NCBI GenBank assembly: GCA_017613535.1
Contig: JAGADO010000100.1
Span: 1 to 38,388 of the forward strand
Direction of reading: 5' to 3'
DNA from: Clostridia bacterium
Lineage (GTDB): Bacteria > Bacillota > Clostridia > UBA1212 > UBA1255
DNA: 38,388 nucleotides
Shown here: positions 11,945-28,750 of the stretch, piece after piece
Layout: each line of letters opens with the position of its first letter
Position numbering within the stretch: the first letter of the stretch is position 1
Position numbers and translations under genes: made by a program
The notes under the pieces: model-generated
The model's database searches: none
Told to the model about the DNA's origin: nothing
The model's input: only the letters and a program-made list of their open reading frames with translations

Positions 11945-12423
11945 AACAGCATCACCTGTCTGTCGTCGGTCTGTTTGCTTTCAAACATGATACCGTCTTC
12001 TTTGTATTTTTTGAGCACGAAGTGCGTGGCGGTGCTTACAACGGCTTCCATCGGGGCAAGCTTTTCGGCTACGAACAGGGCAACTTCGTTCAGGTTTTTT
12101 CCTTCGATCTGGAGCGCGAGGTCGTACGTGCCTGACATCAGATATACGCTTTTTACCTGGTCGTACTGGTAGAAGCGTTCTGCGATCTGGTCGAAGCCTC
12201 GTCCGAACTGAGGCGTCACTTTAAGCTCGATGAGTGCGGTGACAAGCTCTTTGGATGTCTTTCGCCAGTTGATCATCACTTTTTTTCCTACGATGATCCC
12301 TTCGGCTTTGAAGCGGTCGATCTGCGATCTGACCTCTTCCTCAGTCGTGTTCAGCATGACGGCAATATCTTTCGCCGTCAGTTCGCTGTCTTTATCCAAA
12401 AGTTCGAGAATTTCATTGTCCAT
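11941..12423 (-). CDS. Lrp/AsnC family transcriptional regulator
   Basis: DNA-binding regulator, 160 residues from the chosen start. An N-terminal winged helix (SELTAKDIAVMLNTTEEEVRSQIDRFKAEGIIVG) is followed by an RAM/AsnC ligand-sensing domain (about 65-145) containing the typical YLMSGTYDLALQIEG strand. I chose the ATG at 12423 because GGAGAG sits 8-9 bases upstream. An in-frame ATG at 12459 would add 12 residues, but its nearest GAGGG is about 15 bases away. It is the first gene of the operon with the aminotransferase. It probably senses an amino acid related to that enzyme's substrate and may control both its own operon and the divergent gene at 12611; this is inference from position. 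Confidence 0.9.
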   Translation of the reverse strand: MDNEILELLDKDSELTAKDIAVMLNTTEEEVRSQIDRFKAEGIIVGKKVMINWRKTSKELVTALIELKVTPQFGRGFDQIAERFYQYDQVKSVYLMSGTYDLALQIEGKNLNEVALFVAEKLAPMEAVVSTATHFVLKKYKEDGIMFESKQTDDRQVMLF

Positions 12424-24736: not shown

Positions 24737-26428
24737 ATGATCGAATATGTTGACGGCGGGCGGAAAATAAGCCCGGTATTGTCGGATGGCGGAATTGAAA
24801 TATACAGGCTCGAGGGGGCCGGTACATATAAGTGGACCGAGGAACTGAAGGGCGTGTTTTACACGTGGGCGCCTCTCGGGGGGCGCGATCACAGCATCAG
24901 GCAGTGGTTCTTCCCGAATTCGTGCGAAGCGATGTACCAGTTCGGCGCGCCGCTCATGGCGACGGTTGACGCAGACGAAAACAACCGTGTCACGGCGGCA
25001 TTGTCGGACTCGGTATCGAGATCGAAAATAAGCGTGTGCGTTGACGACCTCAACCAGAAAGACGAGATAATTTTCACCGTTAATATAGAGAACAGCTCGA
25101 GGCTCCGGCGAGGCGGGGAAGTGCTGCTGAGGATCGACAGGCGGGAAATACTTTATTGCCGCGCGATCAGCGACGCGGGCGAATGGATGCGGTCGTTTCT
25201 CCCGGGCGGGCAGGTGCGCGTGCCGGACAACGCCGAGCTTCCTCTTTATTCGTCGTGGTACAATTTCCACCAGGAGCCCGACGGAGCGCTGCTCGAAAAA
25301 GAGCTTGAACTCGCCGCAAAAATGGGGTTCAAAACATTCATCCTTGACGACGGCTGGCAATTCGAGGGCGAGAATACGGGCGATTATTATAAGTGCGGCG
25401 ACTGGAGCGTTGCCAGGGACAAATTCCCTGATTTCAGGCGCTTTTGCGACCGCGTCCACGGCTTCGGCATCAGGATGCTGATGTGGTTCCCGGTGCCTTT
25501 CGCGGGTTACGCGACGGAGGATTACAGGCGGCTGAAGGACAAGATGGCTTATAACAATGATGCTTTCCGTGCGGGCGTGCTTGACATCCGCTACCCCGAG
25601 ATCAGGGCGTACATTTCGGGCATATACGAGCGCTTCGTGAGGGAGTACGGGATCGACGGGCTGAAGCTCGATTTTATTGACGCGTTCCGGGCCGATCCGT
25701 CAATCATCGCGCCGTTTGCTGAAGGGATGGATACCGAAAGCCTTGATGACGCCGCGGTCATACTGATGGACGAAATTTACGCAAAATTGACGGCGATCGA
25801 CCCCGATTTTCTGTTCGAGTTCCGTCAATGCTATATCGGCGCCGCTATCGTTAACCGCTGCAATATGCTGAGGGTCGCCGACTGTGCCGCGGATTCCTCC
25901 ACGAACCGCGTCGGTATTGCCGCTCTTCGCATGGTCAACGGCGGTACGGCTATCCATTCTGATATGCTTTTGTGGGGCAGGCGCGAGTCTCCTCTTAACT
26001 GTGCCCGCCAGCTTATGAACATTATGTTTTCCGTGCCTCAGATCTCCGTGCGCCTGACCGGGATCGGCAGCGATCAGCTCGCGGTCCTTTCTCATTTCGT
26101 GCGTTACTGGACCGAGAACCGCGCTGTCCTTCTTCATGGTGTTTTTTCTGCGCTTCATCCTGATTTCGGCTATTCCGTGATGCGTTCCGAGACCGCCGAC
26201 AAACGCATTTCGGTCCTCAGTGCCGAGCCTTTGTTCGCCCCCTGCGGCAAGCCCGAGGATGTTTTTAATAACACTTCTTTCGATTACGTCGTTTCGGCCG
26301 GCGGAGCCTGCTTCGGGTACGAGGTTTTTGATATGGTGGGCAATCTCCTTTCGTCCGGTGTTTCGGGGCCGGCTGCCGAGAAGCTCGCGGTGCCCAGGGG
26401 CGGGATGCTGAGGGTCAAGGGGAGTTAG
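24737..26428 (+). CDS. GH36-like alpha-galactosidase, cytoplasmic
   Basis: Retaining glycosidase of the GH36 / clan GH-D type, 563 residues, probably acting on alpha-galactosides or alpha-N-acetylgalactosaminides. The barrel starts with SSWYNFHQEPDGALLEKELELAAKMGFKTFILDDGWQ, typical of GH36. The likely nucleophile is D312 in GLKLDFIDAF, and the acid/base is D382 or D386 in VADCAADSSTNRVG. The protein is shorter than the usual 700-750-residue GH36 enzymes because its N-terminal beta-sandwich is reduced. There is no signal peptide. The ATG at 24737 has AGGAGG 7 bases upstream; longer starts are excluded by the promoter. Exact substrate is uncertain. Confidence 0.87.
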   Translation: MIEYVDGGRKISPVLSDGGIEIYRLEGAGTYKWTEELKGVFYTWAPLGGRDHSIRQWFFPNSCEAMYQFGAPLMATVDADENNRVTAALSDSVSRSKISVCVDDLNQKDEIIFTVNIENSSRLRRGGEVLLRIDRREILYCRAISDAGEWMRSFLPGGQVRVPDNAELPLYSSWYNFHQEPDGALLEKELELAAKMGFKTFILDDGWQFEGENTGDYYKCGDWSVARDKFPDFRRFCDRVHGFGIRMLMWFPVPFAGYATEDYRRLKDKMAYNNDAFRAGVLDIRYPEIRAYISGIYERFVREYGIDGLKLDFIDAFRADPSIIAPFAEGMDTESLDDAAVILMDEIYAKLTAIDPDFLFEFRQCYIGAAIVNRCNMLRVADCAADSSTNRVGIAALRMVNGGTAIHSDMLLWGRRESPLNCARQLMNIMFSVPQISVRLTGIGSDQLAVLSHFVRYWTENRAVLLHGVFSALHPDFGYSVMRSETADKRISVLSAEPLFAPCGKPEDVFNNTSFDYVVSAGGACFGYEVFDMVGNLLSSGVSGPAAEKLAVPRGGMLRVKGS

Positions 26429-26434
26429 TTGCGT

Positions 26435-26952
26435 ATGGCAAAGAGATTCGGCGCCATTTTGAGGTTTCAGGACGCCGCCACCTCATCCTTGATCACGGGG
26501 CTCTGCTTCTTTTAGGCCTTTTTTGCTTGTGTGACCCAGCAAACCAGAGAAATCCGGATTTTGCTGGGTACGTTGGCGCTGTCTCCATTAAATCGACTGG
26601 CAATTCTTTGACCGAAAAACCCAGCAATTTTAAATTATCAAAAGATTGCTGGGTATGAAGGCGCCGTCTTTTGGCAGAAAAGTGGTCAAAGCTCTGCTCC
26701 TTCGGAACGTTTTGACGAATTTTGAACCCAGCAAATTTAAAAAACTTAAAGACTGCTGGGTAAAAGCCGAAGACTTTTCTGAAAAAATGAGCGAGCCAGG
26801 GCAAGGTTGAACCCAGCAAATCTTAAAAAGCGTTATTTTGCTGGGTAAATTAAACGCACCTGGCCCGAAAAATGGGCGATTCAGGTGCGAACTTTTGAAG
26901 AATGAGGTGGCGGCGCCCTGCTGACTCAAATGGCGCCGGATCTTTTTTCCAT
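26435..26952. mobile_element. 518-bp element with long terminal inverted repeats and internal hairpins (MITE-like or structured RNA)
   Basis: The left end (26435-26490) and the reverse complement of the right end (26897-26952) align over about 56 bases with one gap and roughly ten mismatches. Shared blocks are ATGG, GGCGCCATTT and CGCCGCCACCTCAT. The trinucleotide CGT flanks both ends (26432-26434 and 26953-26955), which could be a target duplication or chance. Inside are four 36-nt hairpins (26534-26846) and a nested hairpin, CGCACCT (26855-26861) with AGGTGCG (26883-26889). There is no plausible coding sequence: minus-strand open frames here are repeat-driven and lack ribosome sites. It fills most of the 667-base gap between the GH36 gene and the next gene. 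Either a non-autonomous transposable element or a large structured RNA read through from the GH36 transcript would fit. Confidence 0.65.
26534..26846. repeat. Four 36-nt hairpins with ACCCAGCAAA/TTTGCTGGGT arms
   Basis: Hairpins at 26534-26569, 26619-26654, 26726-26761 and 26811-26846. Each is exactly 36 nt, with arms of 8-10 bases and a loop of about 16 bases. Linkers are 49, 71 and 49 bases, so starts are spaced 85, 107 and 85. In hairpin 2 both arms change together (AAT/ATT instead of AAA/TTT), a compensatory change that preserves pairing. Loops differ between copies. The linkers after hairpins 1-3 are recognisably related (GGCGCTGTCT, GGCGCCGTCT, GCCGAAGACT), so the module is hairpin plus linker repeated four times. 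Confidence 0.85.
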
Positions 26953-26973
26953 CGTGGTAAAAAAGGAGGTATA

Positions 26974-27003
26974 GCCATTTGCAATTTTACATTTGCCATT
27001 TCC
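26974..27003 (-). repeat. GGCAAAT-type repeat upstream of a promoter
   Basis: ATTTGC, ATTTGCC and GCCATTTGCAATTTTAC-type sequence, the reverse complement of the tract at 24569-24620. It ends 9 bases before the -35 box of the surface-protein promoter. Confidence 0.65.
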
Positions 27004-27012
27004 AAAAACCGA

Positions 27013-27042
27013 TTGACACCCGTCCGCGGCGTATTGTACAAT
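27013..27042 (+). promoter_or_regulatory. Promoter of the duplicated-domain surface protein
   Basis: TTGACA (27013-27018), an 18-base spacer and TACAAT (27037-27042). Transcription would start near 27049, about 47 bases before the ATG. It lies outside the inverted-repeat element that ends at 26952. Confidence 0.75.
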
Positions 27043-27095
27043 TTCACCAGCAGGATGCTGAATATCCGCAAAAAAAGAGAGGTGCGAAGACTAAA

Positions 27096-28499
27096 ATGAA
27101 AAAAATTGCAGCCGCCATAGTGGCGCTAATGATGCTCATTTCAATGTTCAGCGTATTGACGATCTCGGCAGAAGACGGGCCGCCCGAAGTCGACGAATCG
27201 ACAGTCAGGGCCTATCCGTACTCGACCGAAAGCGGCATTGACCCGTCCGTCTGGCTCAACACATTTGACGAAGAAGGAGTCTGCAAAGGAACAGATTACG
27301 TAATATTTAACATCGCGGCACCGATCAAGGCCATCGGCCTCCCCGTGATCTACGCGGGCAAAGCTGAAAATGATCAGGACGCTTCTGTCAGGTACGAGCT
27401 CTTCAAATGGGACACCGACGCGGCCAAAACGCTCGCAGGTACGCCTGTGTTCACGCAGGAGGTATATTACGACGGAGACCACAAAGACCAGTCTCACCTG
27501 GTGCTTGATGCGGTACAGCCTGCCGGACAATACCTTTTCAAGATCAGCCAGATCACCGATCTCAATGATGCGCCCGGCGTCGGACACTACGCCGTGCTGC
27601 CCATCTCCGAGATGCTTTTCGGAGACACCAGGATCGAATACGACGCAAAAGGACCGTTCGCATTTTATGTTGACTGCGAAAAAACAGAAGGCGTGAGCGA
27701 TTTCTTCCTTACCCTCGAAGGCAAAAGCGCAGAGATCGTTGTCAAGGCCGAGAAGACCGTCATTGCCAGGAACGGCGACTCGCCTCACGAGATCAATGAA
27801 TACGGTATCGTCACCCCCGAAGTGCCTGCGGGCATGGTTATGTACACGCTGTCGCTTACCGCCGCACCCACGTGGTCAAACAGAAACGGCGACTCTGACG
27901 TTGAGTTTAATGTGTACAAATGGACGGGCGATTATGAAGAGAGCGTTGCCGGCCGTGTGATCGCATCCGGCGAGATACTTGACCACGCCGATAACTCCAA
28001 CCTTACTTTAAAGTTCGGCATCGCGCTCCGCTACGGCTACAGGTACCTGATCGTCATCGAGAAGTCGAACGACGGCAAGATCGGTTACTGGGAAGGTGTT
28101 CCCGATGCACCCGAGGGCTGGGAGTTTTATGAATTCGGATCCGAACTCGAATTCACTCCTTCGCTCCGAGTCTCCTACGCCGAAGTCGGCGACCTCGGCC
28201 CCGAGCCTACCGAAGAGCCTACGAAGGAACCCACCGAAGTTCCCGCAACTCCCGAGGCCACCGAAGTACCCGCGACCGACGTTCCCGTTGTGACCGACAA
28301 ACCCGCTGCTACCGATGCTCCCGTTGCTACCGATGCTCCCGTAGTTACCGAAAACAGCGGTTCTGAAGATAACAAGGACAATGACAAGGATAAGCCCAAG
28401 GGCAATAACGTTCTTCCTATCGTTATTGCGGTTGTCTGCGGTGTCATCGTTCTGGCCAGCGTGATAGTCATCATCGCCACCAAGAAAAAGAAGAAGTGA
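27096..28499 (+). CDS. Secreted, membrane-anchored surface protein with two related beta domains; function unknown
   Basis: 467 residues. An N-terminal signal peptide (about 1-26, cleavage after ISA) and a C-terminal hydrophobic helix plus KKKKK tail place it on the cell surface anchored by its C-terminus. No LPxTG sorting motif is visible. Two domains share a pattern: the first (about 35-185) has ELFKWDTDAAKTLAGTPVFTQE and later AGQYLFKI; the second (about 235-370) has NVYKWTGDYEESVAGRVIASGE and later YRYLIVI. Both look like jelly-roll ligand-binding modules. A Pro/Thr/Glu-rich stalk of TEEPTKEPTEVPAT-type repeats (about 375-420) separates them from the membrane. A GAGAGGTG ribosome site precedes the ATG at 27096; the longer frame from 26979 crosses the promoter. 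Glycan binding is possible, by inference from neighbours. Confidence 0.88.
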   Translation: MKKIAAAIVALMMLISMFSVLTISAEDGPPEVDESTVRAYPYSTESGIDPSVWLNTFDEEGVCKGTDYVIFNIAAPIKAIGLPVIYAGKAENDQDASVRYELFKWDTDAAKTLAGTPVFTQEVYYDGDHKDQSHLVLDAVQPAGQYLFKISQITDLNDAPGVGHYAVLPISEMLFGDTRIEYDAKGPFAFYVDCEKTEGVSDFFLTLEGKSAEIVVKAEKTVIARNGDSPHEINEYGIVTPEVPAGMVMYTLSLTAAPTWSNRNGDSDVEFNVYKWTGDYEESVAGRVIASGEILDHADNSNLTLKFGIALRYGYRYLIVIEKSNDGKIGYWEGVPDAPEGWEFYEFGSELEFTPSLRVSYAEVGDLGPEPTEEPTKEPTEVPATPEATEVPATDVPVVTDKPAATDAPVATDAPVVTENSGSEDNKDNDKDKPKGNNVLPIVIAVVCGVIVLASVIVIIATKKKKK

Positions 28500-28584: not shown

Positions 28585-28592
28585 CATCCGGA

Positions 28593-28646
28593 TGGAACGG
28601 GGGACAGTGGCGGGTTTCGGTGGAACGGGGGACAGTGGCGGGTTTC
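28593..28646. repeat. Direct repeat pair, 26 bases with 28-base period
   Basis: TGGAACGGGGGACAGTGGCG plus GGTTTC occurs at 28593-28618 and again, identically, at 28621-28646. No function recognised; its GGGGGACAGT core is unlike the flanking sequence. Confidence 0.85.
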
Positions 28647-28721
28647 AGCCGTTTGACCGAAATGCGGATTTTCAGTTGTTATCGCATAAGACCCGAAATT
28701 CGTGTCATCATCCGGTTCGCT

Positions 28722-28750
28722 CATTTGCAACTTGCCATTTGCAATTTCAC
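28722..28750 (-). repeat. GGCAAAT-type repeat overlapping a promoter
   Basis: CATTTGCAACTTGCCATTTG-type sequence, same family and orientation as 26974-27003. It covers the -35 box of the cupin-XRE promoter at 28739-28766. Confidence 0.65.

Follow-up and report, generated by a model that had tools for sequence, protein, structure and literature searches.

Large structured bacterial RNAs such as OLE, GOLLD, and ROOL have a long closing stem and several hairpins. Many bacteria carry small palindromic repeats, which raise the questions of how they move and why their palindromes stay perfect. BOX elements of Streptococcus are built as boxA-boxBn-boxC, and their mobilization in trans has been proposed (PMC3049150). 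REP and REPIN sequences are GTAG- or CGTC-tagged palindromes associated with RAYT genes (PMC3733652, PMC3116915), the REP (GTAG/CGTC) having a stem of 5 to 13 bp, usually a short loop, and an unpaired tag (PMC3733652). Here, we report a 518-bp element in the genome of a Clostridia bacterium that is probably a non-autonomous, non-coding mobile DNA repeat, in which palindromic ends (T/T') enclose a hairpin array. On this reading it belongs to a genus-wide superfamily, inserted between genes, mostly near gene 5' ends, and amplified separately in each genome.

Architecture of the element

The element lies on contig C93, within a window (the whole stretch of DNA analysed) of 38,388 nucleotides, between a GH36/melibiase-like gene and a gene with its own promoter-like site. 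Its long inverted ends enclose four near-identical hairpins (positions 26435 to 26952), as follows:

26435-26490, + strand: left terminal inverted repeat (TIR), module T, which is in turn a short palindrome (GGCGCC...GACGCC)
26534-26569, + strand: hairpin H1, 36 nt, ACCCAGCAA-N18-TTGCTGGGT
26570-26618, + strand: linker 1, type A, with GGCGCTGTCTCC at 26575-26586
26619-26654, + strand: hairpin H2, 36 nt, inner pair altered on both arms
26655-26725, + strand: linker 2, type A, with GGCGCCGTCTTT at 26660-26671
26726-26761, + strand: hairpin H3, 36 nt
26762-26810, + strand: linker 3, type B, with AAAATGAGCGAG at 26784-26795
26811-26846, + strand: hairpin H4, 36 nt
26847-26897, + strand: linker 4, type B, with AAAATGGGCGAT at 26869-26880
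26855-26889, + strand: fifth, weaker hairpin CGCACCTG...CAGGTGCG inside linker 4
26898-26952, + strand: right TIR, module T'; repeated homology goes on to ~26970
27013-27042, + strand: promoter of the next gene, sigma-70-like (TTGACA-18-TACAAT); it lies downstream and does not belong to the element

The ends pair over 56 nt, as the initial annotation had it, and aligned as a single helix they give 46 Watson-Crick pairs, 3 G-U pairs, 2 A-C and 4 other mismatches, and 1 gap (outer part, 26435-26459/26928-26952, 25 nt, 88%; inner part, 26458-26490/26898-26930, 33 nt, 82%). Coordinates bear out its four 36-nt hairpins, which start at 26534, 26619, 26726, and 26811 (spacing, 85, 107, and 85), and the paired arm change that it had noticed is that of H2 (CAAT/ATTG versus CAAA/TTTG in H1 and H4); its tally holds for these four and omitted the weaker fifth. 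A GGTCAAAGCTCTGCTC-like stretch in linker 2 is kept in all copies. Folded as RNA, a check that it had proposed, the element reached −222.2 kcal/mol, far better than shuffles (z = −11; 0/100 as good). No evident open reading frame belongs to the 518-bp element. The CGT triplet reported at both ends is present (26432-26434 and 26953-26955), but it is not a target-site duplication, because homology to other copies, whose flanks differ, extends across the right-hand CGT to ~26970; no target-site duplication was found for the element. Degenerate TTTGCCATTTGCAATTTGC repeats lie at 26965-27005 and also flank the element in many copies.

Dispersed copies, insertion sites, and the genus-wide family

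The element is dispersed in its genome. When the host assembly (2.66 Mb in 177 contigs, 82% complete) was searched with BLAST, contig C86 yielded a nearly full copy at 87% identity; C125, C26, C54, C28, C113, and C61 yielded hairpin-core copies at 73 to 81% identity; and C46 and C65 yielded solo end modules. The hairpin core has at least seven further copies in the same genome (73 to 87% identical). Several solo or tandem T modules occur on other contigs, and T is thus found without the array. Hairpin spacing is near constant despite 13 to 27% divergence among copies: 85-107-85 recurs to within 1 nt in five other four-hairpin copies (C86, C125, C26, C54, and C61), and C113 has 84-116-85. Two copies, those on C26 and C54, bear the left end together with H1 at each end, inverted, instead of a right end, and C26 also carries tandem 63-bp solo T palindromes. 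Tandem T-like palindromic units without hairpins were seen on contig C26 (~63 bp; locus L028, 2497-2660) and in a same-genus genome, G004 (~53 bp; locus L216, 224-420). TIRs of 56 nt are present in C93 and likewise in C86 and C125, and are unclear for several sister arrays; clear TIRs are not seen on some arrays, and the mobile unit is therefore not sharply delimited. Array counts are lower bounds. The genomes are mostly fragmented assemblies, and several arrays end at contig ends.

Insertion is lineage specific. The C86 copy lies between a melibiase-like and a LytR-CpsA-Psr gene, 752 bp apart in the host, and in G003, G004, G005, and G006 the two genes are neighbors with no element between them (~40 to 180 bp; distances read from alignments). 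Because four of four relatives keeping the gene pair lack the element, the C86 copy is an insertion, and it includes the flanking TTTGCCATTTG repeats. In G003, an array separates two divergent genes, a nifS-like class-V aminotransferase and an Rrf2-like regulator (identified by reading its sequence); G005 and G002 lack this array, and G004 lacks another sister array. The GH36 locus (C93 copy) was unusable for this comparison, as downstream gene order differs in G002, the relative examined. The MITE-like reading offered by the initial annotation is therefore supported by dispersed copies, long TIRs, the lack of an evident open reading frame, and orthologous sites without the element; of the two signs it had proposed to look for in the flanks, a 3-bp duplication was not found, and empty sites were (for the C86 copy and for two sister arrays).

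The architecture is shared across species. BLAST with the element gave no match in 57 relatives, and none was found in viral contigs, phages, or plasmids; a covariance model of H3-linker-H4 recovered arrays in G003 and G001, of the same genus, and a further model, based on 17 sequences from three species, recovered arrays in five of seven genomes of the genus, the host's included. In the alignment of the 17 sequences, 89% of cells pair, with a covariation score of 0.29 versus 0.13 for shuffles (0/500) and ≤0.08 when slid; covariation alone is not proof, because the structure was drawn from the same sequences. G003 has 52 exact matches to the motif AAAATGAGCGAG, which is blind to the stems; the host genome and G002 have 8 each, and each of the other 242 sampled genomes of the class has 0 to 4. 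The stem-based model saw nothing in G002, and arrays with unrelated stems (AAACGCCC...GGGCGTTT) were found there at AAAATGAGCGAG sites; in G006, where only the stem-based model was used, no arrays were seen. Related arrays, with palindromes at a ~84-bp period and linkers sharing motifs, are present in all same-genus genomes sampled except one. Each genome has its own amplified subfamilies, and copy number varies greatly between species. Further copies and compensatory changes, both searches set out by the initial annotation, were thus found in the host genome and its same-genus relatives, and no Rfam family matches the element above its gathering threshold. Weak covariance-model matches outside the genus (G012 and G024) were not counted as family (the G012 site is without linker motifs), and 10 matches in unrelated phyla from a pattern scan of GTDB r220 were judged to be chance (rough expectation, a few).

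Linkers are conserved, and stems are exchanged. Of 77 linkers, 61 carry a motif resembling GGGCGCCTTCTC (motif A) or AAAATGAGCGAG (motif B) (expected, 3.2; maximum of 200 shuffles, 9). The commonest step between hairpins is 84 to 86 bp (83 in G002) irrespective of stem. Many arrays carry A-type linkers first and B-type last, an order that recurs with unrelated stems; together with the constant unit length, it hints at a function beyond parasitism. Helical phasing of the spacings (84 = 8 × 10.5) was suggestive, but no claim is made because the copies are not independent. Arms are alike within arrays (identity, 0.90) and less alike between them (0.68; random, 0.45), where stems are often unrelated. 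The stem types were ACCCAGCAA, TCATAGCAAA, TCATAGAGAA, GTCTAGCAAA, AGACATACCA, GTCTAACAAAA, GTTCAACGA, TTCAACAGAA, ATTACCGCCTG, AAACGCCC, and TAAGACAA, some clearly related to each other and others not. Stems alternate as X-Y-X-Y in some G003 arrays (clear in L221 and L225; in L223, with a weaker first member). Beside one gene, 97% identical between G001 and G005, stand the unrelated stems AGACATACCA and ATTACCGCCTG, which may reflect replacement in place or two independent insertions. That gene is of unknown family (with its arrays, G005:C86 ~12010-12420 and G001:C265 20822-21030).

Mobilization and rival explanations

If the element is a mobile repeat, it would be moved in trans by an enzyme encoded elsewhere, which may recognize extruded hairpins, the T ends, or both. 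The likeness of stems within one array could come from recombination or template switching among its hairpins, from selection to match, or from the need to fit a single shared binding partner. As a tentative possibility, rather improbable, selection would keep the stems of one array matched (either all alike or in X-Y-X-Y order), making the array an exchangeable "password" with linkers and unit length fixed and a new kind of element, in which movement or function depends on pairing between hairpins or on a partner specific to the array.

RAYT genes (PF01797) occur in five of the seven genomes, and the flanks examined carry GGGGGACAG-type palindromes or nothing array-like; G004 has many arrays and no RAYT match (genome 70% complete). 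RAYT was rejected as the mobilizer, its flanks bearing other palindromes and not arrays. By inspection, no transposase was evident beside the solo-T matches on C25, C46, C65, C145, and C70. Elsewhere in the window, a partial copy of a palindromic repeat of ~130 bp, M3 (GCGAAGCCGAGTAGACAGTTAAGAATTTCG...CGAAATTCGTACTGTCACTCGGTTCGC), lies at 28650-28733, beside tandem GGAACGGGGGACAGTGGCGGGTTTC units at ~28590-28650, and similar GGGGGACAG palindromes flank RAYT genes of the genus. M3 has about ten or more copies in the host genome, some directly beside T modules, and an M3-like repeat adjoins an array in G001.

The initial annotation had also raised an ornate non-coding RNA. In such a structured RNA, the transcribed element would have its ends as a closing stem, its hairpins as arms, and its linkers as conserved unpaired motifs. 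The very stable fold (z = −11) favors it, and conserved linkers with covarying stems, here seen across the genus, are the usual look of an RNA family. Tolerance of G-U on one strand, the other sign sought beside covariation, was not seen. Among 135 hairpins, chosen for near-perfect arms, 1,182 of 1,215 stem pairs were Watson-Crick (97.3%; G-T, 4; A-C, 11; other, 18), a pattern that very young palindromes would also give, and in the end stems, G-U and A-C were equal (11 versus 12 and 30 versus 31). Because G-U should be tolerated on the strand of a functional RNA, the lack of a G-U excess points to upkeep as double-stranded or hairpin DNA, and the pairing looks to be kept at the DNA level, not as RNA. 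Array orientation relative to neighboring genes speaks against an RNA too (8:4 in tandem contexts, not significant; a bias that was strong in a first crude count fell to this in tandem contexts, which alone are informative), as do the position of the next gene's promoter downstream of the array, the lack of a clear promoter for the array itself, the lack of an Rfam match, and the great differences in copy number between species. No terminator-like site was found in 26380-27110. We consider a structured RNA unlikely.

Two further explanations place the element in DNA. A dimeric DNA-binding protein could bind the palindromes, which would be phased at ~8 helical turns and act in cis on the adjacent promoter (in regulation or chromosome organization). 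Dyad symmetry held with Watson-Crick precision on both strands agrees with this, as does a unit length of mostly 83 to 86 bp whatever the stem, and 45 arrays abut gene 5' ends more often than 3' ends (48 contacts to 23), although this preference may only mirror where insertions are tolerated. Several unrelated stems coexist in one genome, however, so that one protein reading all of them is unlikely; relatives keep the genes without the array; and the neighbors are mostly functionally unrelated (20 proteins scanned, mostly of unrelated families or of none, with no partner gene or defense system evident among them). We regard a cis-acting array as doubtful. Segmental duplication and drift of an immobile tandem repeat, its palindromes kept by replication slippage or template switching alone, would fit the mosaic structure, the tandem T units, and the inverted duplication of T plus H1 in the C26 and C54 copies, and template switching makes perfect palindromes. 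Against it, copies stand in unrelated gene contexts without co-duplicated flanks, sites are empty in relatives, and A-type linkers again precede B-type ones in arrays whose stems are unrelated, leaving it very unlikely. A mobile DNA repeat is thus the reading we prefer.

Comparison with known systems

The element fits the MITE/BOX kind of mobile palindromic repeat. The arrays form a natural series in which linkers are conserved and unit length is fixed while stems are freely exchanged, and stem, linkers, and period are therefore separately testable; the series could lead to the mobilizing enzyme.

Like OLE, GOLLD, and ROOL, the element has a long closing stem and several hairpins, but it is repeated many times in a genome, its stems show no excess of wobble pairs, the sequence gives no hint of transcription, and no Rfam family matches it. 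MITEs (such as Correia elements and RUP) are likewise short, non-coding, and multicopy, with long TIRs and empty sites; here, in contrast, there is an internal hairpin array, TIRs are unclear on some members, no target duplication was found, and no cognate transposase was evident beside the solo-T matches inspected. With REP/REPIN sequences the element shares dispersed extragenic palindromes, lineage-specific families, and hairpin-forming DNA. It differs in its loops of ~16 to 18 nt, in lacking an unpaired GTAG/CGTC tag (CGTC stands at the stem foot of some arrays only, and is paired), in its ordered arrays of 2 to 6 with conserved linkers, and in that RAYT genes of array-bearing genomes are flanked by other palindromes.

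BOX is also a modular intergenic repeat, with end modules that form a stem, a variable tandem inner array, and clusters with other repeats, and its A-Bn-C layout is found here as T-[hairpin unit]n-T'. Unlike those of BOX, the inner modules are palindromes, with stems matching within an array and differing between arrays, and the unit is ~84 bp with conserved linkers; no insertion sequence with similar ends was found. Conserved linkers with exchangeable, array-specific stems were not found in the open-licence literature searched, which is weak evidence of absence. New here are the conserved linkers and the array-wide turnover of stems; the layout itself is related to the BOX and REP families.
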